Source: Actinokineospora auranticolor
Lineage (GTDB): Bacteria; Actinomycetota; Actinomycetes; Mycobacteriales; Pseudonocardiaceae
Length of the DNA stretch: 64,000 nucleotides
Reading direction: 5' to 3'
Assembly: GCF_002934265.1 (NCBI RefSeq)
Contig: NZ_PTIX01000001.1
Location: forward strand, 186,001-250,000
Part shown: positions 10,094 to 52,347 of the stretch, piece by piece
How the letters are laid out: every line of letters begins with the position of its first letter
Numbering within the stretch: the stretch's first letter is position 1
The notes under the pieces: generated by a model
The model's input: only the letters and a program-made list of their open reading frames with translations
Databases searched by the model: none
What the model was told of the DNA's origin: nothing
Program-made: the position numbers and the translations under genes

Positions 10094-10169
10094 GCCTCCG
10101 GCCCCCGGAATCAATTCTATCGGCGGGTGCCGACATCTACCGTCGAGTAGTGATCTTCCTGTGGACAAC
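10094..10169 (+). repeat. 76-bp dispersed element, copy A, with DnaA box
   Basis: It starts GCCTCCGGCCCCCG and ends CTGTGGACAAC. It shares length and conserved blocks with copies at 19775, 38902 and 29974/30848. TGTGGACAA (10160-10168) is a perfect DnaA box on the minus strand. The MITE at 9850 duplicated the first bases of this copy. Confidence 0.8.
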
Positions 10170-10181
10170 TCCGGGGCGGTC

Positions 10182-10218
10182 GCATACCCCGTGGCATACC
10201 CCGTCGCGGGGGTAGGCT
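10182..10218 (+). promoter_or_regulatory. Promoter of oxygenase-acdS operon with 12-bp tandem repeat
   Basis: GCATACCCCGT occurs at 10182 and 10194 (12-bp period) just upstream of a TAGGCT -10 box (10213-10218) that lies 6 nt from ATG 10225. The repeats overlap the -35 position, so they could be a regulator site. Confidence 0.5.
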
Positions 10219-10224
10219 GCGGCC

Positions 10225-11172
10225 ATGGGGAGCATCCCGGTGGTCGACATCGGTCCGCTGCGCGACGGCGACGGCCGCGCCGTCGGGGCCGCCATCGGTG
10301 CGGCGTGCCGGGAGCACGGGTTCTTCCACATCACCGGCCACGGCGTCGACGACGGTCTCCAGGCGGACCTCGAACGCCACAGCCGCGCCTTCTTCGCCCA
10401 ACCCCTCGCCACCAAGCTGCGCGTCGCCATGCCCCTCGCGGGTTCCGCCTGGCGCGGGTACTTCCCGCCCGGCGGCGAACTCACCTCCGGCGTGCCCGAC
10501 CTCAAAGAGGGCTACTACTTCGGTCAAGAACTCCCGGTCGACCCGCGTCCGCTGCATGGCCCAAACCTCTTCCCCCAAGAGCCAAGCGGACTCCGGGAAA
10601 CCGTACTGGCCTATATGGACGCTCTTACCGACTTAGGCCAGGTAGTCCTACGCGGCATAGCGCTCAGTCTTGACCTGGACGCCACCTACTTCGAAGACCG
10701 CTTCACCGCGTCTCCCTTGACCCTCTTCCGAATCTTCCACTACCCCGCGCAACCGGCGGGCACCGCCGGATGGGGAGTCGGTGAGCACACCGACTACGGG
10801 TTGCTCACCATCCTCAAGCAAGACCACAACGGCGGCCTGGAAGTTCGCGCCCCCGCAGGGTGGGTTTCCGTCGACCCGATCCCCGGCACGTTCGTCTGCA
10901 ACATCGGCGACATGCTCGACCGGCTCACTGGTGGCACCTACCGCTCCACTCCGCACCGCGTACGGTCCGGGGCGCGCGACCGGTTGTCGTGGCCCTTCTT
11001 CTTCGATCCCGCATTCGACGCGGACGTCACCCCGGTCGCCGACGCCGTCTTGGCCGACGGTCCGCGTTGGGACGGTGTGAGCCCTCACGAGTTTCGCGGC
11101 ACCTACGGCGATTACCTGCTCCACAAGGTCGGGAAAGTCTTCCCCGACCTGAACGAAGGACTTCCGGACTAG
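10225..11172 (+). CDS. Isopenicillin-N-synthase-type Fe(II)/2-oxoglutarate oxygenase
   Basis: 315 residues. The N-terminal DIOX_N region has VVDIGPLRDG and HGFFHITGHGVDD. The 2OG-FeII_Oxy core has the iron triad His188-x-Asp190 (GEHTDYG) and His244 (STPHRV), with the co-substrate motif R253-x-S255 (DRLSWPFFFDP). The superfamily also contains plant ACC oxidase and ethylene-forming enzyme, which is notable because the next gene, 14 nt downstream, is an ACC-deaminase homolog. The substrate cannot be read from sequence. ATG 10225 follows TAGGCT by 6 nt, indicating a leaderless message. Confidence 0.85.
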   Translation: MGSIPVVDIGPLRDGDGRAVGAAIGAACREHGFFHITGHGVDDGLQADLERHSRAFFAQPLATKLRVAMPLAGSAWRGYFPPGGELTSGVPDLKEGYYFGQELPVDPRPLHGPNLFPQEPSGLRETVLAYMDALTDLGQVVLRGIALSLDLDATYFEDRFTASPLTLFRIFHYPAQPAGTAGWGVGEHTDYGLLTILKQDHNGGLEVRAPAGWVSVDPIPGTFVCNIGDMLDRLTGGTYRSTPHRVRSGARDRLSWPFFFDPAFDADVTPVADAVLADGPRWDGVSPHEFRGTYGDYLLHKVGKVFPDLNEGLPD

Positions 11173-11186
11173 CGAGAGGCACACCC

Positions 11187-12191
11187 ATGGCCCTTGTCGA
11201 CCACGCGCGGATACCCCTGACCTTCGGGCCGTCCCCCGTGCACCCGCTCGCGCGGCTGAGCGAGCACCTGGGCGGGGCGGCCGTGTGGGCCAAGCGCGAG
11301 GACTGCAACTCCGGGTTGGCCTTCGGCGGCAACAAGGTGCGCAAGCTGGAGTACCTCGCCGCCGAGGCCGTCGCCACCGGCTGCGACACGCTGGTGTCCG
11401 TCGGCGGCGTGCAGTCCAACCACACCCGCGCGGTCGCCGCCGTCGCCGCGCGGCTCGGGTTGCGGTGCGTCGTGGTGCGCGAGTCCTGGGTGGACTGGCC
11501 GGACTCCGTCTACGACCGGGTCGGCAACCCGCAGCTCACGCGGCTGCTCGGGGCCGAGGCGCGGGACGTGCGCGGGGAGTTCGGGCTGGACGCCAAGGAG
11601 AGCTTCCTGCAGGTGCTCACCGAACTCGACCTGCGCGGCGGCAAGCCGTACCCGATCCCCGCGGGCGCCTCGGACCACCCGCTCGGCGGGCTCGGGTTCG
11701 CCCGCTGGGCCGAGGAGCTGGTGGCCCAGGAGCGCGAGCTCGGTGTCCGGTTCGACACGATCGTCGCCGCCACCGGGTCCGGCAGCACCCAGGCCGGGAT
11801 GGTCGCCGGGTTCGCCGCGCTGGGGGAGCGGCGGCGCGTCATCGGCGTCGACATCACCGGCAAGCCCGCCGACAGCCGCGCCGTGGTCGCCCGCGTCGCC
11901 CGGCGCACGGCCGCGCTGCTCGGCGTCGAGCGGGCGCTGGACGAGGACGAGATCGTGGTCGACGAGCGCTACCACGCGGGCGCCTACGGCGTCCCCGACG
12001 AGGAGACGCTCTCCGCCATCCGGCTCGGCGCGCGGACCGAGGCGATGATCACCGACCCGGTGTACGAGGGCAAGTCGCTGGCCGCCCTGGTCGACCTCGT
12101 CTCGACCCGTGAGATCCCGGCCGACGCCACCGTCCTGTACGTCCACCTGGGCGGACAGCCCGCGATCAACGCCTACAGCGCGGTCCTGTGA
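11187..12191 (+). CDS. acdS: 1-Aminocyclopropane-1-carboxylate deaminase-like PLP enzyme
   Basis: 334 residues. KREDCNSGLAFGGNKVRKLEYL holds the PLP-binding Lys; GGVQSNHTRAVAAVAARLG, ESWVDWPDSVYDRVGN, PAGASDHPLGGLGF, RTEAMITDPVYEGKS and HLGGQPAINAY match ACC deaminases rather than D-cysteine desulfhydrases; the Glu in RTEAM and Leu in HLGG are the discriminating positions as I recall them. The enzyme opens ACC to 2-oxobutyrate and ammonia. Start ATG 11187 has a weak GAGAG site. It forms an operon with the upstream oxygenase. D-cysteine desulfhydrase remains an alternative. Confidence 0.8.
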   Translation: MALVDHARIPLTFGPSPVHPLARLSEHLGGAAVWAKREDCNSGLAFGGNKVRKLEYLAAEAVATGCDTLVSVGGVQSNHTRAVAAVAARLGLRCVVVRESWVDWPDSVYDRVGNPQLTRLLGAEARDVRGEFGLDAKESFLQVLTELDLRGGKPYPIPAGASDHPLGGLGFARWAEELVAQERELGVRFDTIVAATGSGSTQAGMVAGFAALGERRRVIGVDITGKPADSRAVVARVARRTAALLGVERALDEDEIVVDERYHAGAYGVPDEETLSAIRLGARTEAMITDPVYEGKSLAALVDLVSTREIPADATVLYVHLGGQPAINAYSAVL

Positions 12192-12293
12192 CCAAGGCCC
12201 CCGGGCCCGCGAGTTGGTCAAGCCCGCCGACCGCGCCACGGCTACGATCTGGCGACTGAATTCCCGCCGGTGAGCGCGATGGAGCAGGTGTGC

Positions 12294-13473
12294 ATGGATG
12301 CTGTCGTGGCATCGCAGGACGTGGTGCGCGTCCTGCTGGTCGAGGACGACGCGGGTGACGCCCTGCTCGTCGAGGAGTTGCTCGCCGAGGTGTCCGCGCC
12401 GATCCAGCTGACCAGGGCGCACAGCCTGGGGGAGGCCCAGCCGCTGCTGGCCGGGCAGGACTGCGTGCTGCTCGACCTCGGCCTGCCCGACGCCTCCGGG
12501 TTGCAGGCGCTGCGCAGGCTGGAGCAGGCCGCGGGAGACGTGGCCGTGGTGGTGCTCACCGGCCTCGCCGACGAGCAGCAGGGCGTGGCCGCGGTCGCCG
12601 CGGGCGCTCAGGACTACCTGGTCAAGGGGCAGGTCGACGGCGACCTGCTGAGCCGGGTCATCCGCTACGCCGTGGAACGCGCGCGCACCGAGGAGATCCA
12701 GCGGCAGCTGCACGAGGAGCGGCTGTACGCCAAGGAGAAGGCCCGCCTCGAACGCGGCCTGCTGCCCAAACCGGTGCTCTCGGACCCGCGCCTGGCCCGC
12801 GACTTCGCCTACCAGCCCGGCAGGCAGCGGATGCTGCTCGGCGGCGACTTCTACGACCTGGTCGAGGCCGACGACGGCACCGTGCACGCGGTCATCGGCG
12901 ACGTCTGCGGCCACGGCCCCGACGAGGCCGCGCTCGGCGTCCACCTGCGCGTGGCCTGGCGCGCCATGGTGCTGGCGCAGCGCCCGGTCGAGGAGGTGCT
13001 GTTCACCATGCAGCGCATCCTCGCGCACGAACGCCACCTCGACGGCCTGTTCGCCACCGTCTGCATGCTCTCGGTCGCCCCCGACCGCCGCACCGCCCGG
13101 CTGCGGCTGGCCGGGCACCCGCCGCCGGTGCTGGTCACCGCCGACCGCGCCGCCGGGCTGCTGTCCGCGCCCGTCGGCGTGCCGCTCGGGGTCACCGGCA
13201 AGGCCGACTGGCCCGCCGCCACCGTCGAGCTCGGCGAGTCGTGGTCGGTCCTGCTCTACACCGACGGCCTGATCGAGGGCAGGCTCGACCGCTCCGCCGA
13301 GCGGCTGGGCCCGACCCGGCTCGCCGACCTGGTCGGCACCCTCGCCGGGCACCACCCCGACTGGCGCGCCACGGTCCTCGACGACCTGATCCGCGAGGTC
13401 GTCGACCTCAACGCGGGCGACCTGACCGACGACGTCGCCGCCATGCTGCTCACCCGCCTACCGGAAGGTCCGA

Positions 13474-13481
<8 letters not shown>
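12294..13481 (+). CDS. Receiver-linked PP2C (SpoIIE/RsbU-like) phosphatase
   Basis: 395 residues. The receiver domain (about 8-125) has LLVEDD, Asp in CVLLDLGLPDASG and Lys in DYLVKGQ. A short coiled linker, RTEEIQRQLHEERLYAKEKARLERGLLP, leads to a PP2C-type phosphatase with LGGDFYDLVE, VIGDVCGHG, LAGHPPPVL and YTDGLIEGR. Such proteins dephosphorylate anti-anti-sigma factors or act in light/stress responses. ATG 12294 has GGAGCAGG 8 nt upstream; GTG 12270 and ATG 12279 are in frame. It overlaps the next kinase gene by 8 bp and begins a three-gene signalling operon. Confidence 0.85.
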
Positions 13482-15059
<1,578 letters not shown>

Positions 15060-15063
<4 letters not shown>

Positions 15064-15503
15064 CCGGACCCACCGACATCAAGGTCATCGACGTCCTGCT
15101 GGTCGAGGACGACGACGGCGACGTGCTGATGACGCGGGAGGCGTTCGAGCACTACAAGATCCGCAACCAGCTGCACGTGGTGCGCGACGGCGAGCAGGCC
15201 GTGCAGTTCCTGCGCCGCGAGGGCCAGTACGCCGACGCCCCCCGCCCCGACCTGATCCTGCTCGACCTCAACCTGCCCCGCTTCGACGGCAGGCAGGTCC
15301 TGGCCGAGATCAAGGCCGACGCCGAGCTGCGGCTGATCCCGGTGGTCGTGCTGACCACCTCGGAGGCGGAGGAGGACATCCTGCGCAGCTACGAGCTGCA
15401 CGCCAACGCGTACGTGACCAAGCCGGTCGACTTCGACCGCTTCATCGAGATCATCCGCAAGATCGACGAGTTCTTCGTGACCGTGGTCAAGCTGCCCCGC
15501 TGA
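15060..15503 (+). CDS. Single-domain Rcp1-like response regulator
   Basis: 147 residues, receiver only. [18 protein letters not shown], Asp in [18 protein letters not shown], Thr in [13 protein letters not shown] and Lys in AYVTKPVDF mark the active site. No output domain is present, so it probably relays phosphate or acts by protein contact, like cyanobacterial Rcp1. Its ATG overlaps the kinase stop (ATGA). The nearby PP2C protein may be the downstream effector. Confidence 0.9.
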
Positions 15504-15598
15504 GGTTCGCCCGGACCAGGCGTGATCACCTCGGGTGACCGCGGCGTCAGCCGAGCGCGCTATTGCCCCACCCTCCTGCCGGACTACGGTCGACAGCC

Positions 15599-16231
15599 GT
15601 GCTGGAAGAACCCCGCGGAATCACCACGGACCCGCCCGACGACCGCTTCGTCGTGTCGAAGCGGCGCGGGGACGAGTGGTTCCCGGAGTTCCTGGCCCAA
15701 GAGCGGGTCGCCACGCGGATCGTCGACGGCTGCCCGCTGGTCCTGCCGAGGCTGTTGCAGACCGCCGACTACGCCCGCGCCGTGCTGACCACCAAGGACG
15801 ACCTCGACGCCTGCGTGCGGGCCAGGTTGGGGCGCCAGTCGGTGATCACCGGCGCGGACGGGCCGACGCCGTACACCGCGTACCTGTACTGGACGGTGTT
15901 CGAGCGCCCCGTCGTGCCCGCCGCCGCGATGGCCGCGCAGGCCAGGCACGTGGTCGCCCTGGCCGCGCGCGACAACATCACCATCCGGGTCCTGACCCGC
16001 GACAGCGGCTACACGCCGCTGCTCGACGGCGCGTTCACCTACCTGGAGTTCCGGGCCGCCACCCCGGTGACCCAGTTCGAGCACCTGACCTTCGGACTGG
16101 CGTCCTGGCACAGCCGGGTCATCGGGGGGATCCGGGACACCCTGGAGGCGGCCGACCGCGCCGCGCTCGACGCGGCCGCGTCGGCGGACTTCATCACCCT
16201 CGTCGCCGAGAAGTGGGACCGCCAGGCCTGA
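15599..16231 (+). CDS. DUF5753 protein lacking its usual HTH domain
   Basis: 210 residues. The whole protein corresponds to the DUF5753 module normally C-terminal to an XRE-type HTH in actinobacterial regulators: LPRLLQTADYARAVL, RLGRQSVIT, RDNITIRVLTRDSGYTP, GAFTYLEF and VTQFEHL. It has no helix-turn-helix, and none is encoded upstream. GTG 15599 is preferred because TACGGT lies 8 nt upstream; an in-frame TTG at 15563 would add 12 residues. The role without a DNA-binding domain is unknown; it may regulate a partner elsewhere. Confidence 0.75.
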   Translation: MLEEPRGITTDPPDDRFVVSKRRGDEWFPEFLAQERVATRIVDGCPLVLPRLLQTADYARAVLTTKDDLDACVRARLGRQSVITGADGPTPYTAYLYWTVFERPVVPAAAMAAQARHVVALAARDNITIRVLTRDSGYTPLLDGAFTYLEFRAATPVTQFEHLTFGLASWHSRVIGGIRDTLEAADRAALDAAASADFITLVAEKWDRQA

Positions 16232-16236
16232 GCGCG

Positions 16237-16527
16237 TCAGCGGGTCGCGCGCGGCGTGGGGGCGGTGTTGGTGGTGGGGCTGGAGCCGAAGGCGCCACGG
16301 GTGCCCAGCCTTCGCGGGCGGTGCCTGCGGTGGGGCTTGTCGTGGTCGTCGGTCGCCGTAGTGGTGGGGACGCGGGGGCGGAGGCTGGCGGCGAAGCAGG
16401 CGACCCCCACCCCGCCCAGCAGGGCGGCCATGACCGTCCACAGGGTGGCCGACATGTGGGTGGCCACGGCCGCGCACGCGGCGGCGCCCGCGATGGCGAG
16501 GAAGCCCTCCAGGAAGTACTTGCGCAC
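16237..16527 (-). CDS. Small two-segment membrane protein, hypothetical
   Basis: 96 residues from GTG 16527. FLEGFLAIAGAAACAAVATHM and WTVMAALLGGVGVACFAASL form two membrane segments; the tail is rich in His/Arg/Thr/Pro (HDKPHRRHRPRR). GGGAGG occurs 12 nt upstream of 16527 and 3 nt upstream of an alternative GTG at 16536, so the start is uncertain. It converges on the DUF5753 gene 5 nt away. No family is recognised. Confidence 0.5.
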   Translation of the reverse strand: MRKYFLEGFLAIAGAAACAAVATHMSATLWTVMAALLGGVGVACFAASLRPRVPTTTATDDHDKPHRRHRPRRLGTRGAFGSSPTTNTAPTPRATR

Positions 16528-16631
16528 GTTGACCACCGACCTCCCGCTCGTTCTCACCGGTGAGGTACCCGTTCTCGCCGACTTCACGCGCGCCCCGGCC
16601 ACCCGATCGCGGGATCCACTGTGGAGAGTGG

Positions 16632-17243
16632 TCACGCTGGCGTGTTGTTGGTCGCGCTGACGCTGATGCTCTGCGACACCCCGTGCACCCCCTTGGGCCA
16701 CACGGTGTAGGTGTGGGTGGTCTTGCCGGGCGTGGTCTCGCACGGGAACGACAGCTCCAGCTGACCCGAGGCCGGATAGTCGCTGCCGTACGAGCCGTAC
16801 ATCGACGGGCTGTCGACCGAGACCGCCGCCCCCTCGGCACCGGTCACCTTCCACGCGATCACCACCGGCGCGCCGGGCGACGAGAACGGCGCCCCCGGGC
16901 TCGCCTGGACCGGGCACGCGGGCTTCTTCACCACGGTGAGGCTCACGACCTTCGCGCCCGTGGACGCGGGCTTGGTCGTGGTCGTAGTGGTGTCCGTGTT
17001 GTTCTTGCGCGTCGTAGTAGTGGTCGTCGCCGTGGTGCGGTGCGTGGATTTGTTGCTCGCGTTGGCTTCTGCGGTGTCACCGCCCGCGGACGGTTGCGCG
17101 GTAACGGTTTCCGTCACCGTCGACGGCGATTTGGTCGTGTTCGGGTCGCCACTCGCGTCCGCGGTGCGCACCGTCGTGCAGCCGACCGCCCCCACGGCCA
17201 GAACCGCGCCCAATAACAGCCCCTTGACCACATTCGCCCGCAT
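16632..17243 (-). CDS. Thr-rich lipoprotein, hypothetical
   Basis: 203 residues. The signal peptide MRANVVKGLLLGAVLAVGAVGC ends in a lipobox (VGAVGC). A Thr/Ser-rich low-complexity linker (residues about 30-90, with several TTTT runs) precedes a C-terminal domain with two Cys, CPVQASPGAPFSSPG and LSFPCETTPGKTTHTYTVWP, that reads like an Ig-like/beta-sandwich fold. It would be anchored outside the membrane. ATG 17243 is preferred to GTG 17252. No function is recognised. Confidence 0.65.
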   Translation of the reverse strand: MRANVVKGLLLGAVLAVGAVGCTTVRTADASGDPNTTKSPSTVTETVTAQPSAGGDTAEANASNKSTHRTTATTTTTTRKNNTDTTTTTTKPASTGAKVVSLTVVKKPACPVQASPGAPFSSPGAPVVIAWKVTGAEGAAVSVDSPSMYGSYGSDYPASGQLELSFPCETTPGKTTHTYTVWPKGVHGVSQSISVSATNNTPA

Positions 17244-17331
17244 TGTCCCCACCCGTCCCCGTTAGCTGTTTCTCTCACGCACAGAGACGCGGGGCCAGGG
17301 GGAAGGTTGCTGCTTGTGGTCGTCGCCGAGA

Positions 17332-18804: not shown

Positions 18805-18893
18805 GCCGCACTGCCCCCTGGTCGGTGAAACCCCATCACTGTAGATGCCGCCGAGGTGGTACCCATGCCCCGGGACCGACGAGGGGAGTGGCC

Positions 18894-19669: not shown

Positions 19670-20198
19670 GCCGGGTTGGCGCGTCCGGCCCCGGAGCCCG
19701 GCTGTGGTGCTCGCGGATGCTGAGCCGTTCGGATCGGCGCGAGCTGCGCGGGCCGGGCGGGTTGATCTTGGCATGCCTCCGGCCCCCGAAATCGATTCTA
19801 CCGGCGGCTACCGACGATTCGGCGCGGAGATGATCAAGGCTGTGGACAACTCGGTTCCGACGGGCGCGGAGAGGGCGCGGGGCGCAGTGGCGCCTCGGAG
19901 CGGTGGGGAGTGGGCGGTGCGCGTGGGGCAGGCAGTGCTGCGGGCGCGGTCAGAGAGGGGAAGCGCGGTGGTCGGGCGACATGCGCGGTGAAGGTGGGTC
20001 AGGGGCGTTGAGGTGGTGGGCGTGCGGTGAAGGCCGTGTTCGGGGAGACGCGAAGTAGGTGAACGGGGACGGATGCGGCCGGGCGATGCCCTGAACGCCG
20101 CGTCGAAGGGCGGGCGCGAGTGGGTGCGGCAGGGGGCCGGACAGCGCGAGGGCCGCCGTCCCCGGGAGTGGGTGCGGCGGCCCCGACGCGGGTGCGGC
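19670..20198. other. Gene-free interval with copy B of the 76-bp element
   Basis: No convincing coding potential is seen on either strand. It holds the repeat at 19775-19850 and a GC-rich tail toward the convergent gene at 20199. Confidence 0.5.
19775..19850 (+). repeat. 76-bp dispersed element, copy B, with DnaA box
   Basis: GCCTCCGGCCCCCGAAATC at the left end and GATGATCAAGGCTGTGGACAAC blocks at the right end match copies A and C at equal spacing. TGTGGACAA (19841-19849) is a perfect DnaA box. Confidence 0.85.
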
Positions 20199-20621: not shown

Positions 20622-20780
20622 GATCCACTCCCTCTCACGACGCCTGGTGAATCCGCTGAATTAGAACACTCGTTCGCCTGTTCGACGCGGCCGGGGCAGG
20701 CATAGTCGATCGTCACCTGATCGGGCGTACCTCCCGTCAGGAGCCGAACCCGCAGGTCAGCGCCGTCTGATACTCGGGGG

Positions 20781-25886: not shown

Positions 25887-25894
25887 GGGTGGTG

Positions 25895-25947: not shown

Positions 25948-26020
25948 AGGTGCACAGCTCACCGGGCACGGGGAAACCGGGATGAAGCGCACCGGGGGCA
26001 TTGCCTACGCTGGTAGGGAG

Positions 26021-29929: not shown

Positions 29930-29983
29930 GGTGTGCTGGTCCTTGCCGCCTGGGAGGATTCTGTTGGTGCGGAGTTGTCCACA

Positions 29984-30844
29984 GAGGCTTATTCACGCCC
30001 CGGGATGATCACCCCGATGTAAGAGGCGGCGGCCCGTTTGAGAGAATTCAGTTACCACACATTATTCTCGAAAACGGACCGCCTCCATGTATCATGCCGC
30101 CGGCCTCACTCGGGACCGTGTCGAGGAATTATGTGCCCTGATCGGCGAAGCGACCGGGGAGTCGGTTCGCCGGTGGCCGCCGGTTCTGGGTTTGTACCGC
30201 TCCGTGGTGGTCACGTTGGCGTACTTGCGGCGGAATCGGGTTCAAGCGGAGTTGGCGGAAGCGTTCGAGGTGTCACAGCCGACGCTCGGTCGGGCGATCG
30301 CGGCGGTGACACCATTGTTGGCCGGCGTGCTCGAACAGTGCGTTCCCGCGGCCGACGATCTCGACGACCGCAACTCCCCCATAGTGGACGGGACACCGCT
30401 GCCGTGCCGGTCATGGGCTTCCCGCCCGGAGTTGTCCTCCGGGAAACACCGCACGACCGGGCTCACCGTCCAGGTCGCGTACACGCCGGACGGACGTCCG
30501 AGATGGGTGTCGGATCCTAGGCCGGGATCCCGTAACGACATCGTCGGCCTGAACGCCTCGCGGGTTCTCGACGGACGAGAGCCCAGCACCTGGCTCGGCG
30601 ACAAGGGCTACATCGGTAGCGGTATCCTGACCCCGATCAGAAAACCCAGAAACCGAGAACAACCCGACTGGGAAGTGGAGTTCAACCGACACCACAACTC
30701 CATCCGTGTCGTGGTCGAACGCGCCATCGCCCAACTCAAAAGACGGCGTGTTCTCCACACCGACTACCGGCGTCCCATCGACACTTTCACCGACACCATA
30801 TCGGCCGTTATCGCCCTCTACTTCTACGCCGCTGAATAAGCCTC
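29984..30844 (+). mobile_element. IS5-family insertion sequence, intact, 861 bp
   Basis: Perfect 12-bp terminal inverted repeats GAGGCTTATTCA (29984-29995) and TGAATAAGCCTC (30833-30844) enclose one transposase gene. ACA flanks both sides (29981-29983, 30845-30847). A 3-bp duplication would fit the ISL2-type subgroup of IS5 as I recall it. If the ends are read as AGGC/GCCT, a 5-bp CACAG duplication is equally possible. The GC content is lower than its surroundings. Confidence 0.88.
30087..30839 (+). CDS. IS5-family DDE transposase
   Basis: 250 residues, single frame, apparently complete. An N-terminal HTH (LAYLRRNRVQAELAEAFEVSQPTLGRAI) precedes a DDE_4-type catalytic core: first Asp in SPIVDGTPLP, second in STWLGDKGYIG, Glu in VVVERAIAQLKRRRVL. 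It stops at TAA 30837-30839, inside the right terminal repeat region. ATG 30087 lies about 100 bp from the left end. It catalyses transposition of the enclosing element. Confidence 0.92.
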   Translation: MYHAAGLTRDRVEELCALIGEATGESVRRWPPVLGLYRSVVVTLAYLRRNRVQAELAEAFEVSQPTLGRAIAAVTPLLAGVLEQCVPAADDLDDRNSPIVDGTPLPCRSWASRPELSSGKHRTTGLTVQVAYTPDGRPRWVSDPRPGSRNDIVGLNASRVLDGREPSTWLGDKGYIGSGILTPIRKPRNREQPDWEVEFNRHHNSIRVVVERAIAQLKRRRVLHTDYRRPIDTFTDTISAVIALYFYAAE

Positions 30845-31004
30845 ACAGGCTTGATCGTCTTCGCGCGGTTCTGTCGGTGCTCGCCGGTAGAGTGAATATC
30901 GGGGCCGGAGGCGTGCGTTGATCATCTTGTGGTCTGCGCGGTGCCGGTTGGGATCGTGGCTGGGTTGATCGGTCCGGCTGTTCGCGGAAAAAATGTGGGG
31001 CCTC

Positions 31005-31138
31005 GATTGAGTGAACTTGCTTTACGCGGGGCCCCTACGAGCCTGCGGTGGGGAAGAGCGGTGGGATGGGCAAGCCCACCCCACCCGCGGTAGAGCTTGG
31101 CAGGCTCGTCCCCCCACGCAAAGCAAGTCCACCCAATC
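31005..31138. repeat. Long imperfect inverted repeat, about 40-bp arms
   Basis: The left arm 31005-31046 (GATTGAGTGAACTTGCTTTA then CGCGGGGCCCCTACGAGCCTGC) is complementary, with a few mismatches and bulges, to 31100-31138 (GCAGGCTCGTC to CAATC). A second hairpin, GGTGGGATGGGC/GCCCACCCCACC, lies at the centre, giving a branched fold. No protein is encoded. It could be a non-autonomous element or a structured RNA. Confidence 0.65.
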
Positions 31139-31142
31139 AAGG

Positions 31143-31380
31143 CGTATAGCGGGGGCGCGTTGCGTTCGGTGGGGGAGGGGATCCTGCGGCGGTTTCGGGG
31201 TGGTTCGGAAGGAAACGAAACGGCCTGAGATGTGGTGGGGACCGTTGCGTGGGGCGGGGTTGGGTTTCTGTGGTGGTTTCGGGGTGGTTGAGGAGAAGCC
31301 GAAATGGCCGGAGGGGTAGGGGCGCGTTGCGTTCGGTTGGGGCTGGGCTCAAGCGGCGGTTTCCGGGGATGGCTTGTGAG
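31143..31380. repeat. Three diverged tandem repeats of about 80-95 bp
   Basis: GCGTTGCGTTCGGT starts the units near 31157 and 31325, and CCGTTGCGTGGGGC the one near 31239. Each continues with a GGCGGTTTCGGGG-like segment; the first two also share GAAACGAAACGGCC/GAAGCCGAAATGGCC. Confidence 0.55.
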
Positions 31381-31467
31381 GGCGGGACAGGTGGTCTGCC
31401 TGCTGCCGTGAGGGGGATGAACTCGTCGCCCGAGTGGAGATCGTGTTGTGCGGGCGGGGAAATCAGC

Positions 31468-32382
31468 TTATCGGCGGACGTGCAGGCGGACCATCGTCCC
31501 CGTGGCCGGGGTGGAGCGGATGCGCACCAGGTCGCACAGCTGGTTGGCCAGCCACACGCCCCGACCGCCCTGGACCGAGGGGAGGGGGGCGACGCGGCCG
31601 ACCATGGGGTCGGTGATGTGGCCGCTGTCGGTGATCTCGCAGACCAGGGACTCGCCCTCGGTCCACAGGCGCAGGGTGCCGCGTTCGCCGCCGTGGCAGA
31701 TGCTGTTGGTGACCATCTCGTTGGTGGCCAGCGTCAGGTCCAGCGCCCGGCCGCGCGGGAGGCCGAACTGCCTTGCCCGCACCGCCACCAGGTCCCGCAG
31801 TTCGGGCAGGTCGTCGAGGCAGAAGTGGACCATGTCGCTCACCTCGCCCGGGTCGGGCAGCGGGGTGGTGAACAGGTCCAGCGCGTACTCGGGGTCGTAC
31901 GCGCCGGGGACGTGCGCGCCGCCGAGCAGGCACGGGTGGGTGCGGCGCGCGGTCGCCATGACCGACGGGGGCACGTCCGCGTCGAAGGCGCAGCGCAGCG
32001 TCAGGTTCGCGGCGTCGGCGAAGGCCAGGTTGATCAGGGCCTCGTGCAGCGCGACCTCCGCGAACTCGTCGGCGGTGCGGCCCAGCCAGGCCGATTCGCC
32101 GATGCCGCGCACCCCGCGCCCGTCCGCCTCGGCCAGTTGCGCGCGGACCGCCGGGATGAGCCGGGCCGGGTTGCGACCGATCTCCACCACGTCGAGGAAG
32201 TGGACCTCCTCGGCCCGCGCGCCCAGCGCCTCGCGCAGCAGCTTGGCGGGGTGCGGTGGCAGCACGGCGAAAACGGACTCACCCGCCAGCAGGCCGTCGC
32301 GCACGAAAACCGCCGCGCCGTCGACGAAGGAGGACGGGTCGCGGTAGACCAGTGCCTCGTGGGCGAACCCCGGTGCGCTCAT
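31468..32382 (-). CDS. RsbA-like anti-sigma regulator: MEDS sensor plus serine-kinase-type ATPase
   Basis: 304 residues. The N-terminal MEDS/DcmR-like domain has FAHEALVYRDPSSFVDGAAVFVRDGLLAGESVFAV. The C-terminal HATPase_c_2 domain (about 175-300) has LTLATNEMVTNSICHGG (N box), CEITDSGHITDP and GGRGVWLANQLCD, as in RsbW/SpoIIAB kinases. Such proteins switch anti-sigma pathways by phosphorylating an antagonist. No sigma factor or anti-anti-sigma partner is adjacent; the receiver-PP2C protein at 12294 is a conceivable counterpart. ATG 32382 is the start. Confidence 0.8.
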   Translation of the reverse strand: MSAPGFAHEALVYRDPSSFVDGAAVFVRDGLLAGESVFAVLPPHPAKLLREALGARAEEVHFLDVVEIGRNPARLIPAVRAQLAEADGRGVRGIGESAWLGRTADEFAEVALHEALINLAFADAANLTLRCAFDADVPPSVMATARRTHPCLLGGAHVPGAYDPEYALDLFTTPLPDPGEVSDMVHFCLDDLPELRDLVAVRARQFGLPRGRALDLTLATNEMVTNSICHGGERGTLRLWTEGESLVCEITDSGHITDPMVGRVAPLPSVQGGRGVWLANQLCDLVRIRSTPATGTMVRLHVRR

Positions 32383-32601
32383 GCGGTCACGTCCTCGAAC
32401 CTGGAATGGGGGCGGTGTCCTCGCTCTCCAGGACGCGGAGGGCCCGAGCCAGTTCCGACCGCCCGCCGATGAGGCCAGTCACATACCGGGCCGAATCCTA
32501 CCCTCGCGCCACGCGCGCGGCGACCGCTCCGCCGCCACTGCCGCGTGGTGAACACCAACGGCCCAAGGGGGTTGTCGGTTAACCGGGAACCATACTCCGT
32601 C

Positions 32602-33234
32602 CTATGTGGACTGATCGATCCCGTCCACCACCAGTCGTGCGCGGTCGGGGTAGAAGCAGAGCAGTCCCGCGATCTTCTGGCTCTCCGCGAACGGGGCCGG
32701 GTAGCACCACACGAGATCGCGGTGCGTGACGCCGTTTACCACCGCGTCCAGGTACGTCGCCGTCCCCTTGTACGGGCACATCGTCGTGGTGGCCGACGGG
32801 CGCAGCAGGTCCAGCCGCGCGTCCCGCGCGGGCAGGTAGAAGCGCGGCGGCAGGCCGGTCTCGAACAGGACCCTCGGCTGCCCGCTCTCCGCCAGCCGCA
32901 CCCCGTCCAACTCGACCACGACGTGCCGCGACGAGGCCAGCACGTCGACCCGGGTGCACGGGTCGCGCGCGTGGACGTACACCGGTTCGTCCTCCTCGTA
33001 CCACTGGTCCACCGCGCCCCAGTCGACCCCGACGAGCCCCGGCAACCCGGGCGAGGTCCGCACCGCCCCCGCGGGCAGCAGGTCCGCGCGGACGTCGGCG
33101 TCGGGGAACCAGTACGCCGGGTACGGGCGGTCCACCCACACCAGCCGCACCTCGGCGGAGTCGACGACGTACGCGCCGCCGAGGGTGGCGCGCACGTGCT
33201 TGGGGGAGCGCTCCACGCGCCGCGGCTGGTCCAC
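32602..33234 (-). CDS. DUF427 protein
   Basis: 210 residues with two halves. The C-terminal half holds the DUF427 signature: VVVELDGVRLAES, RVLFETGLPPRFYLP, TTTMCPYKGTATYLD and LVWCYPAP. The N-terminal half (AEVRLVWVDRPYPAYWFP) looks like a degenerate second copy. DUF427 is a small beta-barrel family without a firm biochemical role. GTG 33234 follows TAGCGT by 6 nt (leaderless geometry). It is divergent from the membrane protein at 33295. Confidence 0.85.
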   Translation of the reverse strand: MDQPRRVERSPKHVRATLGGAYVVDSAEVRLVWVDRPYPAYWFPDADVRADLLPAGAVRTSPGLPGLVGVDWGAVDQWYEEDEPVYVHARDPCTRVDVLASSRHVVVELDGVRLAESGQPRVLFETGLPPRFYLPARDARLDLLRPSATTTMCPYKGTATYLDAVVNGVTHRDLVWCYPAPFAESQKIAGLLCFYPDRARLVVDGIDQST

Positions 33235-33294
33235 GCCCCGACGCTACCGGCCCGGCGAGTGGCCTCCGCCCCGGTGCCGTGAAAGGTTCTGCCC

Positions 33295-34083
33295 ATGGTC
33301 ATCTCCCTTGCCCCGCGGCCGCGGCACCGGGTGAGCCTGGACGACTGGCTGATGCTGGCGCTCGCGGTCGTGGCGGTCGGCCTGCTGGCCTACCGGGTGT
33401 TCTGGCACCCGCCCGCGGACACCGCCCGGCTGGTCGTCTGGCTCGACCGCGGCCTGTGCGCGGTGTTCGCCGTCGAGTTCGCCTGGCGGTGGGCGCGAAC
33501 GGGGTTCAGCCGTCGCTTCCTGTGGGTGAACTGGTACGACCTCGTCGGCCTGATCCCCCTGACCCACCTGTGGCTGCGCGCGTTCCGCCTGCTGCGGGTG
33601 GTGCGGATCGGCGTGCAGCTCGCCCGCGTCCACCGGCCCGTGGACCGGTCGGTGGGGGAGGAGTTGGCGCACCGGGCGATGGCGCGCTTCGGCGGCGTGC
33701 TGATCGACGTGATCAAGAAACCGCTGACCGTGGCCGTGCTCGAAGAGGTCGTGTCGGTGCTGCGCACCGGCCATTACGCGCGGAACATGGCCAGCGCGCT
33801 GGAGGAGAACCGGGCCGAGATCCGCGCCATGGTCCTGGAGAAGATCCGCGACGACCCCCAGGCGGGCAGGCTCCGCAGGCTGCCCTTCCACGACGAGATC
33901 GTCGGCGCCGTCACCGACACCACGCTGCGGGTGGTGCTGGAGATGCTGGCGGACCCGCGCACCGACGAGCTGATCTCGGACCTGCTGCGGGAGAACATCG
34001 ACCAGATCCGGGAGGCCGTGCGCACCGACGCGCACAAGAACCTGCCCGACCCGTCGCCGCCGGACCGACCGGCGCCCGCGTGA
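33295..34083 (+). CDS. Voltage-sensor-like membrane protein without a pore
   Basis: 262 residues. Three or four hydrophobic segments lie in residues 18-110: WLMLALAVVAVGLLAYRVFW, LCAVFAVEFAWRWA, WYDLVGLIPLTHLWL and an Arg-bearing AFRLLRVVRIGVQLARV that resembles an S4 helix. No selectivity filter or pore helices follow; instead comes a long charged helical tail (residues 115-245). This is a truncated ion-channel architecture seen in actinobacteria. A hairpin terminator follows immediately. Confidence 0.6.
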   Translation: MVISLAPRPRHRVSLDDWLMLALAVVAVGLLAYRVFWHPPADTARLVVWLDRGLCAVFAVEFAWRWARTGFSRRFLWVNWYDLVGLIPLTHLWLRAFRLLRVVRIGVQLARVHRPVDRSVGEELAHRAMARFGGVLIDVIKKPLTVAVLEEVVSVLRTGHYARNMASALEENRAEIRAMVLEKIRDDPQAGRLRRLPFHDEIVGAVTDTTLRVVLEMLADPRTDELISDLLRENIDQIREAVRTDAHKNLPDPSPPDRPAPA

Positions 34084-34084
34084 G

Positions 34085-34112
34085 CGTTCGGGCAGGTGGA
34101 TCTGCCCGAACG
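34085..34112 (+). terminator. Hairpin after the membrane protein at 33295
   Basis: CGTTCGGGCAG (34085-34095) pairs perfectly with CTGCCCGAACG (34102-34112) around a 6-nt loop. Confidence 0.55.
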
Positions 34113-34164
34113 AGCTCCACCGGATCGCGGGCCGGGTGCGTGAAATCCTGACAGAATCCCTCCG

Positions 34165-35310
34165 GTGATGATCTCCGACTTAAGCGCGGACCCCGCCTTC
34201 GACCTGGACCCCGGGGTCGTCCACCTCAACCCCGGCGCGTTCGGCGTGGTCCCGCGCGCGGTGCTCCGGGCGCGGAACGGCTACCAGCGCAGACTCGAGG
34301 CCAACCCGACGCGCTTCCACCGGGTGGAGCTGTTCGACCTGGTCAACCGGGCCCGCGCGGCCGCCGCGGGGTTCCTCGGCACCGACGGCGTGGCACTGGT
34401 GCGCAGCGCGTCGGAGGCGATCGCCACGGTGCTGGCGGCCATCCCGTTCGCCGAGGGCGACGAGATCCTCACCTCCGAGCACGCCTACCAGACCGTGCTG
34501 TTCGCCTGCCGCGAGCGCGCCCACGTGCGGGCCGCGCCGTTCCCGCTCGACGCCGGGCCGGACGAGGTCGCCGCCGCGTTCGTCGCCGGGCTGCGGCCGA
34601 CGACCCGGCTCGTGGTCGTCGACGCGATCACCTCCGCGACGGCGCTGGTGCTGCCGGTGGCGAAGGTGGCGCGCGTGTGCCGCGAGCGCGGGGTGCCGGT
34701 GTTCGTCGACGCCGCGCACGTGCCCGGCCACATCGACCAGCGGCCCGCCGACCTCGGGGTGGACTTCTGGGTCGGCAGCTTCCACAAGTGGGCCTACGCC
34801 CCGCGCGCGGTGGCGGGGCTGTACCTGGCGCCGCGGTGGCGGGAGCAGGTCAAGCCGCTGGTGCCGTCGTGGCTGCACCCGAGCGCCTTCCCCCGCTGGT
34901 TCGACCACGCGGGCGGCGACGACTACTCCGCCTGGCTCGCCCTGCCCGAGGCCATCGACTTCTGGCACGACGCGGGCGGCTGGGACGCGGTCACCCGCAG
35001 CGCCCTCCTCCTCGACCGCGGCGTCCGGCTGGTCGCCGACGCCATCGGCGTGCCCGGCCCCGTCACCCCGCGCCACGCCCCCCTGATGCGGCTGCTGCCG
35101 CTGCCCCGCCACTGGGCCCCGGACGTCGCGGGGGCCCGCGCGCTGTACGAGGAACTGAGCACCCGCCACCGCATCGAGGTCCCGGTGGTCCGCTGGCGGG
35201 ACGACCCGTACCTGCGCATCGGCGCCACCATCGTCAACCGACCGGCCGACTACCAGGCCCTCGCCTCGGCGCTGTCCCAACACCGCTCGCACCTCAGCCG
35301 AACCAGCTGA
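34165..35310 (+). CDS. Class V aminotransferase, isopenicillin-N epimerase (CefD)-like
   Basis: 381 residues. VVHLNPGAFGVVPRAVLRA begins the fold; SASEAIATVL and FVDAAHVPGH give the PLP phosphate- and ring-contact positions; the PLP Lys is in SFHKWAYAPRAVAGLYL. C-terminal YLRIGATIVNRPADYQAL is typical of CefD-type enzymes, which include epimerases and cysteine-desulfurase-like lyases. The real substrate is unknown, and there is no beta-lactam cluster here. GTG 34165 follows CAGAAT by 7 nt; ATG 34168 is the next codon. Confidence 0.8.
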   Translation: MMISDLSADPAFDLDPGVVHLNPGAFGVVPRAVLRARNGYQRRLEANPTRFHRVELFDLVNRARAAAAGFLGTDGVALVRSASEAIATVLAAIPFAEGDEILTSEHAYQTVLFACRERAHVRAAPFPLDAGPDEVAAAFVAGLRPTTRLVVVDAITSATALVLPVAKVARVCRERGVPVFVDAAHVPGHIDQRPADLGVDFWVGSFHKWAYAPRAVAGLYLAPRWREQVKPLVPSWLHPSAFPRWFDHAGGDDYSAWLALPEAIDFWHDAGGWDAVTRSALLLDRGVRLVADAIGVPGPVTPRHAPLMRLLPLPRHWAPDVAGARALYEELSTRHRIEVPVVRWRDDPYLRIGATIVNRPADYQALASALSQHRSHLSRTS

Positions 35311-35843
35311 CGCGGCCATCTCGCGACTCGGCTGCCCCGCCACCCGCCCCGGGGCGCTGCTGCCGCGAACGCGATTTCGCATGACGCCCGCCCAGCCGGT
35401 GGCCGCGAGGCCCTCCCGACCGGAATGCCACGGCCGGCGCCGAGGAACCGAGCAGAACGCGGACCTGAGGCCCGCGCGGCTGTCGTGTCCGCGCGGCAGG
35501 TGGCCACCGCGGCGTGCTTGAGGTCGAGCTCGCCCGTCGCGGTCGAGGAGCTCGGACCCTTGGTGAACCGGCGCCCGGGCCGCCCAGCCGCGGCGGCGTC
35601 GGCTCAACGCCGCCGCGAAACTCGACGGATCCAACCGGCCGCCGCCTCGTCACCCGGCCGCCGTGAACCCGTCGTCGCACGACCCGCACCCGCCCAATGC
35701 CCGGCGAGAGGTCCCCGGGACCGGAGAACCCCCTGGTCTCAATTCTCTCGCGGCGCGGCCGGTGATCGGCGGTCCTCCGGCGGGCCTGTGGACAACTTCC
35801 GGAGATGTGGACAGCGGTGTCGGAAAGCGCGTCGAAGGGCGGA
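35311..35843. other. Gene-free interval with copy E
   Basis: About 530 bp in which no reading frame yields recognisable protein; all long frames look like GC-driven noise. It contains the diverged repeat at 35721-35796 and a second near-match DnaA box at 35806-35814 (TGTGGACAG). Confidence 0.5.
35721..35796 (+). repeat. 76-bp dispersed element, diverged copy E, with DnaA box
   Basis: The right end GGGCCTGTGGACAAC, the CAATTCT block and the CCCCC run occur at the same spacing as in copies A-C, though the left 12 bp are poorly conserved. TGTGGACAA at 35787-35795 is a perfect DnaA box. Confidence 0.6.
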
Positions 35844-36083
35844 CTACTGGACCTCGCTGTCCGGTGGTGGGATGCCGAAGTCGCCGCAGGCGGGCTCGAC
35901 TTTGTCCACTCCGGACACCGCGCGCAGGGTTCGGATGGCGCCGGTGGGGGCCGAGCCGGTGATGGTGCCGATCTCCGCGAGCACGTGCTCCACCCGCAGG
36001 CCCGCCGCGGTCAGGTCCGCGACGACCTCCGGCAGGCGGGACGCGGCGTCGGCCGACACCACCACCAGGACCGGTTCGCTCAC
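35844..36083 (-). CDS. Small I9-propeptide-like protein downstream of a subtilase
   Basis: 79 residues. The pattern PVLVVVSADAASRLPEVVADLTAAGL, VEHVLAEIGTITGSAP and AIRTLRAVSGVDKVEPA suggests a beta-alpha-beta-beta-alpha-beta ferredoxin-like fold, as in peptidase inhibitor I9 (subtilisin propeptides); similar small proteins are sometimes mislabelled ketohydroxyglutarate aldolase. GTG 36083 overlaps the subtilase stop (GTGA), so both are made together. It lacks a signal peptide, like its partner. A stand-alone chaperone or inhibitor for the adjacent protease is the inference. Confidence 0.65.
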   Translation of the reverse strand: MSEPVLVVVSADAASRLPEVVADLTAAGLRVEHVLAEIGTITGSAPTGAIRTLRAVSGVDKVEPACGDFGIPPPDSEVQ

Positions 36084-37288
36084 GGGGATTGGACCAGGCC
36101 CGCGCCGACGTCCGTGCTCGGCAGGGGCAGCCTGCGGGCGGACTGGGACAGGCGGGCCCACAGCTCCCACCCGCGCGCGCCGGTCGCCTGGGCGATCAGC
36201 GCCGCGACGCCCGCGACGTGCGGGGTGGCCATGCTGGTGCCGCTGATCCGGTTGTAGTTCTTCGGCCGCGGCCACGACGAGTACACGTCCAGGCCGGGGG
36301 CCACCACGTCCACCGCGCCGATCTCGTCGACGGTGCCGCAGGAGAACCACGCCAGCGCGGACGCCACGTCGATGGCGCCGACGGCCAGGACCGACGGGCA
36401 GTTCGCCGGGTGCCCGACCGGCCAGATGACGCCGTTCTGCCGCTTCGAGTCGTTGCCCGCCGCGGCCACGATCAGCGTGCCCTGCGCCAGCGCGCGGTTG
36501 GCGACGGTCTCCCAGGTCTGCGAGTACGGCGTGCCCGGCCGCACCGTGGCGCCCAGCGACATCGACACGATCTGGCAGTTGTTCGACACCGCCCACGCGA
36601 TGCCCGCCAGGATGCCGCCGTCGGTGCCGGAGCCCTGGTTGCTGAGCACCTTGCCCGTGAAGATCTCCGCCTTGTACGCCACGCCGTACCCCGGGCCCGT
36701 GCCCGGCTCGCGCGGACCGGCGGCGCTGCCCACGCAGTGCGTGCCGTGCCCGTGGCCGTCGTCGGGGGACTCGCCGGGGACGAACGAGATCCGGGTGACC
36801 GCGCGGCCCGCGAAGTCCGGGTGCTCGACGTCGAAGCCGGTGTCGAGCACCGCGATCCGGATGCCCTCGCCGGTCGCCGCGCTCAACTGGGCGCGCACGG
36901 CCTGCAGGCCCCAGGTGAACCGCGACTCGTCGGCGCCCGCGGGGGCGGCCACCTCGGCGTCCGGGGCCTCGGTGCTGATCGCGTACACCCGGCGTTCGGC
37001 CTCCAGCGCCACGATCGGGCCGGGTTCGTCGACCGCGCGGGCCAGCGCCGCGGCCTGCTCGGTGTCGGCGTCCACCACCGCGACGCCGAGCCGGTCGTAG
37101 ACCAGGTTCTCGGCACCGGCGAAGTCGACCCCCGCGGCCTCGGCGGTGCTCGCGGTGCTGATGCCCGCGACCCGGCGCAGCTCGTGGGTACCGGCGGCCA
37201 CCGCGTCGTCGGCCAGCAGCACCAGGTACCGGCCGGTCGTCTCGGTCTCCGCCGGGGAGTCGTCTGGGGTCGTTCCTGGCTCGGACAT
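36080..37288 (-). CDS. S8 subtilisin-family serine peptidase without signal peptide
   Basis: 402 residues. Catalytic triad Asp149 (AVLDTGFD), His181 (GHGHGTHC) and Ser352 (ISGTSMATPHVAG), with oxyanion Asn279 (AAAGND). Residues 20-105 (YLVLLADDAV to VYAIS) read as an N-terminal I9-like region. There is no signal peptide or membrane segment, so it is probably cytosolic or exported by another route. The unpaired Cys at GTHC and in NNCQI, NCPS and FSCGT is unusual for a secreted enzyme. It is coupled to the small I9-like gene downstream. Start ATG 37288. Confidence 0.87.
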   Translation of the reverse strand: MSEPGTTPDDSPAETETTGRYLVLLADDAVAAGTHELRRVAGISTASTAEAAGVDFAGAENLVYDRLGVAVVDADTEQAAALARAVDEPGPIVALEAERRVYAISTEAPDAEVAAPAGADESRFTWGLQAVRAQLSAATGEGIRIAVLDTGFDVEHPDFAGRAVTRISFVPGESPDDGHGHGTHCVGSAAGPREPGTGPGYGVAYKAEIFTGKVLSNQGSGTDGGILAGIAWAVSNNCQIVSMSLGATVRPGTPYSQTWETVANRALAQGTLIVAAAGNDSKRQNGVIWPVGHPANCPSVLAVGAIDVASALAWFSCGTVDEIGAVDVVAPGLDVYSSWPRPKNYNRISGTSMATPHVAGVAALIAQATGARGWELWARLSQSARRLPLPSTDVGAGLVQSP

Positions 37289-37471
37289 CGCATCCGCCCT
37301 TCGTCGCGGCTAGCCCACCTGAAAGTGTGATCGCAACCCACGCTTGGGTGTAACGCTCATCACACTTTTGCCGTAACTGCGACCATCGGGTGACAGGGGC
37401 CGGATCTGTTCCCGGCGGTCCACCCCGTGGCACACCCCGAAGTGGTCGGCCCGTGCGTTTACTGTCGGAGC

Positions 37472-38710
37472 ATGCAGACCTGGCAATCCCACCCGGTGCC
37501 GCGGGTGGAGGGCACACCGCGCCCGCTGCGGTTGTTCGACACCGCCGCGGGCGAGGTCCGGCCTACGGCCCCCGGACCGACCGCCACGATGTACGTCTGC
37601 GGGATCACCCCGTACGACGCCACCCACCTCGGGCACGCGGCCACCTACCTGGCCTTCGACCTGGTGCACCGGCAGTGGTTGGACAACGGCCACGAGGTCC
37701 ACTACGTGCAGAACGTGACCGACATCGACGACCCGCTGCTGGAGCGGGCCGCGCGCGACCGGGACGACTGGGTGGTCCTGGGCATGCGCGAGACCGCGCT
37801 GTTCCGCGAGGACATGACCGCCCTGCGCGTGCTGCCGCCCCGGGAGTACGTCGGCGCGGTCGAGTCCATCCCGGAGATCGTCGAGGCGGTGGCGAAGCTG
37901 CTGGCGGACGGCGCCGCGTACCGCGTGGACGACCCGGAGTACCCGGACGTCTACTTCGACCACAACGCCACCGGCCGCTTCGGCGGCGAGTCCAACTACG
38001 ACGAGTCCACGATGAACCGGTTCTTCGCCGAGCGCGGCGGCGACCCGGACCGCCGGGGCAAGCGCCACCCGCTCGACGCGCTGCTGTGGCGCTCGGCCCG
38101 GCCGGGCGAGCCCAGCTGGGACAGCGAACTCGGCGCGGGCCGCCCCGGCTGGCACGTCGAGTGCAGCGTCATCGCGCTCAACCGGCTCGGCATGACCTTC
38201 GACCTGCAGGGCGGCGGGTCGGACCTGATCTTCCCGCACCACGAGTACAGCGCGGCCCACGCCGAGGCGCTGACCGGCCAGCACCCGTTCGCGCGGCACT
38301 ACACGCACGCGGCGATGATCGCCCTCGACGGCGAGAAGATGTCGAAGTCGCGCGGCAACCTGGTGTTCGTGTCGCGGCTGCGGGCCGACAAGGTCGACCC
38401 GATGGCGGTCCGGCTGGGCCTGTTCGCGGGTCACTACCGCACCGACCGGGCGTGGACCGACCAGGTCCTGGCGGACGCCCAGACCCGACTGGCCACGTGG
38501 CGGGCGGCCGTGGTTGCACCGGCGGCGGCCGACGCCCGACCGCTGGTCGCGGCCCTGCGCGACCACCTCGCGAACGACTTGGACACCCCGAAGGCGCTGG
38601 CCACGGTCGACGCCTGGGCCGCCCGCACCCTCGCGGGCGGCGAATCGGACGCGGAGGCCCCGGCCTTGGCCCGCGACGCGATCGACGCCCTGCTCGGCAT
38701 CGCGCTCTGA
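37472..38710 (+). CDS. mshC: Cysteine:1-D-myo-inositol 2-amino-2-deoxy-alpha-D-glucopyranoside ligase (mycothiol synthesis)
   Basis: 412 residues. It is a CysRS paralog: [16 protein letters not shown] carries the zinc Cys and HIGH-like motif, [11 protein letters not shown] the further zinc ligands, and [10 protein letters not shown] the KMSKS loop; the tRNA-binding C-terminal part of CysRS is missing. It joins Cys to GlcN-Ins in the third step of mycothiol synthesis. ATG 37472 follows TACTGT by 6 nt, a leaderless start. A long hairpin follows the stop. It is monocistronic. Confidence 0.96.
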
Positions 38711-38716
38711 CGCGGG

Positions 38717-38757
38717 CGGTGGTGGCGGTGCCTCGGGCGGAGGTGCCGCCACCACCG
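38717..38757 (+). terminator. Hairpin terminator after mshC
   Basis: CGGTGGTGGCGG (38717-38728) and CCGCCACCACCG (38746-38757) form a perfect 12-bp stem with a 17-nt loop that can itself pair (CCTC/GAGG). It begins 7 nt after the stop. Confidence 0.6.
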
Positions 38758-38901
38758 ACGAAGTGGCGATGCCTGCCGAGCGGGCGCTGTGGATCGACGC
38801 TGTCGCGTGGACGGTCGTTGGCTCGTGGCCATCACGCGGGTGGGCGGGGCATCGGCCTTGGCATTCCCCCGACCGGCGCGACCCGATGGCGCGGCGCGCG
38901 T

Positions 38902-38977
38902 GCCTCCGGCCCCCGATATCCATGCTACCGGCCGGGGCCGACAGTGCTCGGCGGAGATGATCATGCCTGTGGACAAC
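38902..38977 (+). repeat. 76-bp dispersed element, copy C, with DnaA box
   Basis: It begins GCCTCCGGCCCCCGATATC and ends GCCTGTGGACAAC. The perfect DnaA box TGTGGACAA (38968-38976) is followed by GTGTCCACA (one mismatch, 38986-38994) in inverted orientation, so CCTGTGGACA and TGTCCACAGG (38966-38996) form a 10-bp inverted repeat. Confidence 0.85.
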
Positions 38978-52341: not shown

Positions 52342-52347
52342 GGGCGC

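Follow-up and report, generated by a model that had tools for sequence, protein, structure and literature searches.

A dispersed intergenic element of Actinokineospora that couples a DnaA box to a PafBC-type promoter motif at a fixed distance

A window of 64,000 nucleotides—the whole stretch analysed here, C1:186001–250000 of an 8.43-Mb, 61-contig Actinokineospora draft genome—carries a set of short intergenic elements that end in a perfect DnaA box and that mostly contain, at a fixed distance from the box, a PafBC-type promoter motif (labels in C, G and L denote contigs, genomes and loci). The consensus DnaA box is the 9-mer TTRTCCACA, and the form found here, TTGTCCACA, is the exact actinobacterial box. 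It occurs exactly five times in the window against 0.22 expected, five or more occurrences appeared in none of 100 shuffles, and the other consensus form, TTATCCACA, was not found in the window. According to our own simple gene caller, which was used throughout, all five boxes are intergenic and four are flanked by convergent genes. The first-pass annotation of the window had reported five intergenic copies of a 76-bp element ending in this box, and no further perfect box, and on both points it was right.

Three copies on the minus strand are exactly 76 bp in length and, when re-read, each contained the sequence blocks described for it. The first (10094–10169) has its box at 10160–10168, a PafBC −26 motif, TGTCGGC, at 10129–10135 and a −10 hexamer, TAGAAT, at 10114–10119; the second (19775–19850) has the box at 19841–19849, CGTCGGT at 19810–19816 and TAGAAT at 19795–19800; and the third (38902–38977) has the box at 38968–38976, TGTCGGC at 38937–38943 and the −10 hexamer TAGCAT at 38922–38927. 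A fourth copy, on the plus strand, is split by an insertion sequence (IS), as had been proposed: its box (29975–29983) is separated from the remainder (30848–30912), in which a 24-bp spacer is followed by TGTCGGT (30872–30878), nine nucleotides, the −10 hexamer TAGAGT (30888–30893) and CGGGGCCGGAGGC. These four copies constitute family A. The fifth (35721–35796, minus strand) had been taken for a diverged member of the same group; it does keep the length and the box (35787–35795), but belongs to a sister family, B, with a degenerate −10 hexamer, GAGAAT, at 35742–35747, a GC-rich hairpin at about 35704–35734 and no TGTCGGT.

Read along the strand of the box, the layout of family A is TTGTCCACA-N24-TGTCGGT-N9-TAnnnT (TAGAAT in the consensus), and 3′ of this −10 comes a G-rich start, frequently CGGGGGCCGGAGGC. 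A column-by-column comparison of 35 copies picks out as conserved the blocks GCCTCCGGCCCCCG, ATCCATTCTA, CCGACA and GATCAAGCCTGTGGACAAC, joined by spacers of variable sequence and nearly constant length. The published PafBC motif is given in PMC5656591 as tTGTCRgtg-8nt-TannnT; the family A consensus and many of its copies match it as TGTCGGT-N9-TAnnnT, and by this match the half of the element beyond the box is a PafBC-type (RecA-independent DNA-damage) promoter motif. The coupling extends beyond the window. In a 2.0-Mb sample of this genome (most of C1, C2 and C3, part of C6 and two pieces of C4), 69 boxes lie outside called genes: TAnnnT stands 39–41 bp past the box in 33 of them (at exactly 40 in 26), 58 bp past it in six and at other scattered offsets in eight more, TGTCRG stands 24–25 bp past it in 18, and a second TCCACA lies 13 bp beyond it in seven. 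The same sample holds 11 matches to family B, the window copy at 35721 included, in which a hairpin (GGGGTCCCC...GGGGAACCCC) is followed by a TAGAAT-like hexamer and, in most, by one or two DnaA boxes.

The same layout is found upstream of genes. It precedes recA in three families (f1: L215 and L217–L220; f34: L255, L256, L258, L260, L262 and L263; f41: L266–L268), ligA (L201 and L205), uvrC (L273), a gene for a YgjP-like metallopeptidase (L204, L207, L209, L212 and, in this genome, C4:3617, or L309) and DUF222 genes (L251, L265 and Williamsia L196). A Pfam search with ten downstream proteins returned RecA, LigA, YgjP-like and UvrC domains, a helicase (L264) and three DUF222 proteins, while the proteins at L197 and L271 had no match at E 1e-6; the names RecA, LigA and YgjP-like at loci beyond that search were read by eye from translations. 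In Actinokineospora itself, each of the 16 examined regions upstream of recA contains a box 22–23 bp from CGTCRGn-N9-TAGCGT, and this box is TTGTCCACA in 13, TTATCCACA in one and within one mismatch in two; in the four such regions listed at a gap of 42, another box is present at about 23. In the rest of the order the picture at recA is mixed, some regions having the motif with no box within one mismatch (e.g., G042, G043, G016 and G018) and others having both (G039, G037 and G044).

The distance between box and motif falls into discrete classes. The pattern TTGTCCACA-N15-45-TGTCGGT-N9-TAnnnT is present in 52 of 200 family genomes, and its counterpart with the box–motif pattern reversed in none of these 200 and in none of 394 class genomes. 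Among the 143 places listed from the 52 genomes, the gap is 22–25 bp in 75, 33–35 bp in 12, 41–44 bp in 54 and 39 or 40 bp in two; in the class sample, 25 of the 29 places outside the genus have a gap of 23–25 bp. Within the 2.0-Mb sample, the box takes this orientation 14 times and the opposite one never. Thirty loci, picked up by the element profile through their resemblance to boxed copies, yield 28 motifs and 24 forward boxes (gap of 23–26 bp in 19 and of 42 bp in five), with one reversed box at 21 bp. Exact-pattern searches miss diverged sites, and Actinokineospora recA escapes this one because its motif begins with C (CGTCGGT). The steps of about 9–10 bp between the gap classes suggest that the boxes share one helical face; with an assumed transcription start 7 nt past the −10, the box centres would fall near −57, −67 and −76.

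In the genome as a whole, TTGTCCACA occurs 287 times and the reversed word 25 times, and an excess of the former holds in all 15 congeners, from 66 versus 17 (G001) to 573 versus 31 (G015). A sequence profile built from 34 copies puts the copy number of the element at no fewer than 149 (149 matches among the 150 candidates scored); the family is thus neither small nor confined to the window, and the genome-wide dispersal at first supposed from the window is borne out. The same profile gives between one and at least 150 matches in each congener. A profile of the element lacking its box detects 39 copies in the 2.0-Mb sample, and the box is perfect in 26. Eighteen of these 39 copies were seeds picked from perfect-box sites; among the 21 others, eight have a perfect box, one has TTATCCACA and two are split by an IS. 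The strict form TGTCGGT-N9-TAGAATGG was counted at 20 places in G000, three in G012 and two in G004. A long family A pattern had no match in a wider contig collection, and a shorter one matched nine stretches. Congeners and genus g54 (L200; the name Actinophytocola is inferred) possess subfamilies of their own, which share the box, the motif, the −10 and, in many cases, the G-run but differ in their further sequence.

Dispersed copies show a marked preference in their placement. The 39 copies of the sample comprise 21 between convergent genes, 13 between tandem genes, four between divergent genes and one inside a gene; convergent regions make up 57,514 of 286,794 intergenic bases (20%) and hold 21 of the 38 intergenic copies (binomial P 2e-6, ignoring clustering). 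No open reading frame common downstream of the dispersed copies was seen. Among the 133 copies listed genome-wide, clusters contain up to four copies, and 36 neighbours lie less than 600 bp apart against 1.4 expected; the regular 9–10-kb spacing read from the window is therefore a local feature. The 36 close pairs have facing boxes in 15 cases, opposite-facing boxes in three and boxes in the same direction in 18 (P 0.008 for 15 versus three). Some family A copies are adjoined by a different repeat, about 190 bp in length (L048:6930–7075, with similar sites in C1, C2 and C3); it is a long inverted repeat whose core is conserved, and its outer arms differ between sites, yet by eye appear still complementary.

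We favour, with a probability of roughly two in three, the reading that family A is an amplified, gene-less form of a composite DnaA/PafBC promoter whose layout is common to recA and other genes. The layout, its spacing, the genes downstream of it, the copy number and the variable presence are read directly from the sequences. The occurrence of the layout upstream of recA and some other genes argues that it is a genuine regulatory architecture, and common descent of one repeat does not readily account for its recurrence, at fixed spacing and in several families, before repair genes that are unrelated to each other. Dispersed copies, for their part, behave as an amplified repeat that has retained the promoter layout. 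The first-pass annotation had recognised a dispersed, mostly intergenic, box-ended family with signs of mobility; what it missed was the PafBC-type promoter motif at a fixed distance from the box. Each family A element would accordingly be an orphan composite promoter, with a DnaA box at about −57, 24 bp, TGTCGGT, 9 bp, TAnnnT and a G-rich start. A PafBC/RNA polymerase complex would form upon the build-up of single-stranded DNA, and DnaA, on one helix face at about −57, −67 or −76, would be placed to contact or modulate this complex. In Actinokineospora and genus g54, the gene-less module would then have multiplied in the form of a short, non-autonomous repeat, mainly between convergent genes. 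DnaA presumably binds the copies, which may fire in a PafBC-dependent manner and, instead of being inert, yield short RNAs of a non-coding or antisense kind.

Several observations weigh against this reading. The sites upstream of uvrD, the proteasome ATPase gene and a WGR-domain gene in this genome have a PafBC-type motif and no box, and family B has the box at mostly the same distance from its −10, yet lacks the TGTCGGT −26 motif. Only 26 of the 394 class genomes match the exact pattern, and four of the 29 places outside the genus have gaps of 29, 32, 33 and 35 bp; the strict motif with TAGAATGG is present in only three of 61 genomes. The box is reversed in some units of relatives (e.g., L211 and L302), as is a TTATCCACA box near the motif of one DUF222 gene (L170), and orientation is therefore not absolute. 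The counts given above are not independent, since the copies share ancestry and the same orthologs appear repeatedly. The preference for convergent regions argues against the driving of a neighbouring gene, and no precise empty site or target duplication of the element was found among the congeners.

The strongest competitor, possible but clearly the less probable account, holds that family A is a selfish, non-autonomous repeat whose promoter and box were inherited from an autonomous parent or are needed to move, and that it has no role for the host. Copy number and clustering speak for it, as does variable presence, examined at the 38902 site. Usable alignments on both sides of this site were obtained from nine of the 15 congeners and from none of the other six: six congeners have 0–19 bp between the gene ends (those left after extrapolation of partial gene alignments), in G014 and G010 the interval is 319 and 434 bp, respectively, with no perfect box in either, and in G012 it holds three related units. 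Of all 15 congeners, G012 is the only one in which the element profile detects copies here, although diverged units could be missed. Longer units that end at the box point the same way: those at C2:451376 and C3:205601 share 94% identity across about 500 bp, and the members of a further group share 83%–91% across about 370–460 bp. Moreover, two diverged copies, at about 700670 and 705264, lie in-frame in linkers between acyl carrier protein (ACP) and ketosynthase domains of the protein encoded at C1:693934–710301 (plus strand), a polyketide-synthase-like name having been read from its sequence; a third such linker has no element, and the second copy is weak (E 0.0015).

Insertion behaviour at the box is likewise in keeping with a selfish repeat. 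The IS5-like element that splits the fourth window copy at its box end (29984–30844, plus strand) encodes a DDE transposase (30087–30839) that matches Pfam DDE_Tnp_4 above the cut-off and NCBIfam IS5-family models only below theirs. Its ends are GAGGCTTATTC and GAATAAGCCTC, and it has generated a 3-bp ACA duplication, the second ACA lying at 30845–30847. All three copies of this IS in the 2.0-Mb sample (the window copy, C1:607443–608304 and C3:270799–271659) occupy an identical position within a TCCACAGG site with the ACA duplication, two of them in family A copies, and the IS thus seems to target DnaA-box-like sites. On the other side, terminal inverted repeats of the miniature-transposon (MITE) type were not recognised in family A by eye, the word GATGATCAA being a direct repeat in many copies, and neither a parent transposase nor any Y1 transposase was recognised in the genome. 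The layout also occurs singly before recA and other genes in several families and is thus not solely mobile in origin.

Candidate sources of the family were also sought. REP/BIME repeats are short, dispersed and intergenic and are often paired in opposite orientation. Family A is likewise short, dispersed, intergenic and often oppositely paired, but has no supported hairpin, contains promoter motifs and resides in a genome with no matches to PF01797, the Y1 (RAYT-type) transposase, and a REP/RAYT origin was rejected. DUF222/HNH (13E12) genes, some of which (Williamsia L196, L251 and L265) have the same box–PafBC promoter, start about 7 nt past the −10, whereas the dispersed copies share no start codon; DUF222 genes occur in 33 of 61 genomes searched, few of the 26 upstream regions listed have a box and some of these boxes are reversed. 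An origin from such genes was dismissed, no DUF222 gene being present in this genome. Searches with the exact pattern or with one copy of family A revealed no phage, plasmid or viral source.

Titration of DnaA, one of the roles first proposed for the element, now appears improbable. In this scheme, hundreds of dispersed boxes would buffer free DnaA and so set the timing of initiation, and the 287 boxes against 25 of the reversed word, the excess in all 15 congeners and the good conservation of the boxes (perfect in 26 of 39 copies, or in eight of the 21 non-seed copies) would suit it. Box totals, however, range from 66 to 573 between congeners, and the fixed distance to a PafBC promoter is left unexplained. 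The expectation that the box should be more conserved than the rest of the element failed: it is among the most conserved blocks together with CCGACA, ATTCTA and CCTCCGGCCCCC, all strongly conserved, but does not exceed CCTCCGGCCCCC, and by the annotation's own reasoning pure box titration is thus not favoured. The loci datA and DARS are DnaA-control loci with boxes outside oriC. Family A boxes are also outside oriC; rather than a dense, datA-like cluster, each copy has one or two boxes, and more than 100 promoter-coupled copies exist.

We give similarly little credence to the proposal that TTGTCCACA is the site of another activator of PafBC promoters and not of DnaA, even though the position of the word is locked to the promoter. 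The word matches the actinobacterial DnaA box, perfect boxes also occur up to 1.4 kb downstream of a DnaA-domain match in this genome, and one recA promoter has the other consensus form, TTATCCACA. Published work assigns PafB to the −26 motif and PafC to domain 4 of sigma (PMC11804915). Finally, that the copies are bidirectional terminators or structured RNAs between convergent genes is very unlikely: the preference for convergent regions and the strong family B hairpin would fit, but family A has no supported RNA structure (three predicted pairs and no compensatory change), the window has no Rfam match at gathering thresholds, and the promoter spacing would remain unexplained.

The preferred reading of a composite DnaA/PafBC promoter has partial precedents. 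PafBC has been studied mainly in mycobacteria, where its (RecA-NDp) promoters share with family A a TGTCRGt −26 motif, the exact TAnnnT spacing, an association with recA and repair genes and a PafBC encoded in the genome. The mycobacterial promoters differ in that the accessible parts of PMC5656591, PMC6789036 and PMC11804915 do not mention a fixed upstream DnaA box, and here most copies are gene-less. An initial search reported in PMC9380542 suggested that S. venezuelae has not conserved the M. smegmatis PafBC motif. As for DnaA, PMC8203912 reports regulation of damage genes in E. coli, where DnaA and LexA act at SOS genes (uvrB and recN), and a DnaA-linked, RecA-independent response in B. 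subtilis. These systems resemble the present one in having an initiator site at damage promoters; they differ in that PafBC, not LexA, is involved here, in another phylum, with fixed spacing and genome-wide amplification. No open-licence publication was found that joins PafBC and DnaA in its title or the opening of its abstract.

The predicted regulator of the promoter half is itself encoded in the window. A probable pafB (61719–62675, plus strand; WYL and WCX domains) is so named because it lies between pafA and pafC, and is followed by pafC (62672–63646, plus strand; HTH_PafC, WYL and WCX); neither has an NCBIfam match. Genes for the proteasome ATPase, Pup, PafA and the probable PafB and PafC are found together at 49172–63646, and the PafBC-type motif without a DnaA box before the ATPase gene (49172–50782) occupies 48910–48931 on the plus strand, 241 bp upstream of the called start. 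Elsewhere in the window, at 7157–7366, G-rich direct repeats are arrayed at mostly 18-bp spacing.

From the phased boxes it may tentatively be proposed that DnaA is a dedicated co-regulator of PafBC in many Actinomycetes, and that the more than 100 gene-less copies in Actinokineospora provide stress-switched non-coding transcription while drawing DnaA away from oriC; we regard this wider proposal as doubtful. Should binding underlie the phasing, a major bacterial group would have its replication initiator wired directly into the damage response that does not depend on RecA. The layout makes testable both the role of DnaA at recA and the question of why more than 100 orphan damage promoters have been kept, mostly at converging genes.

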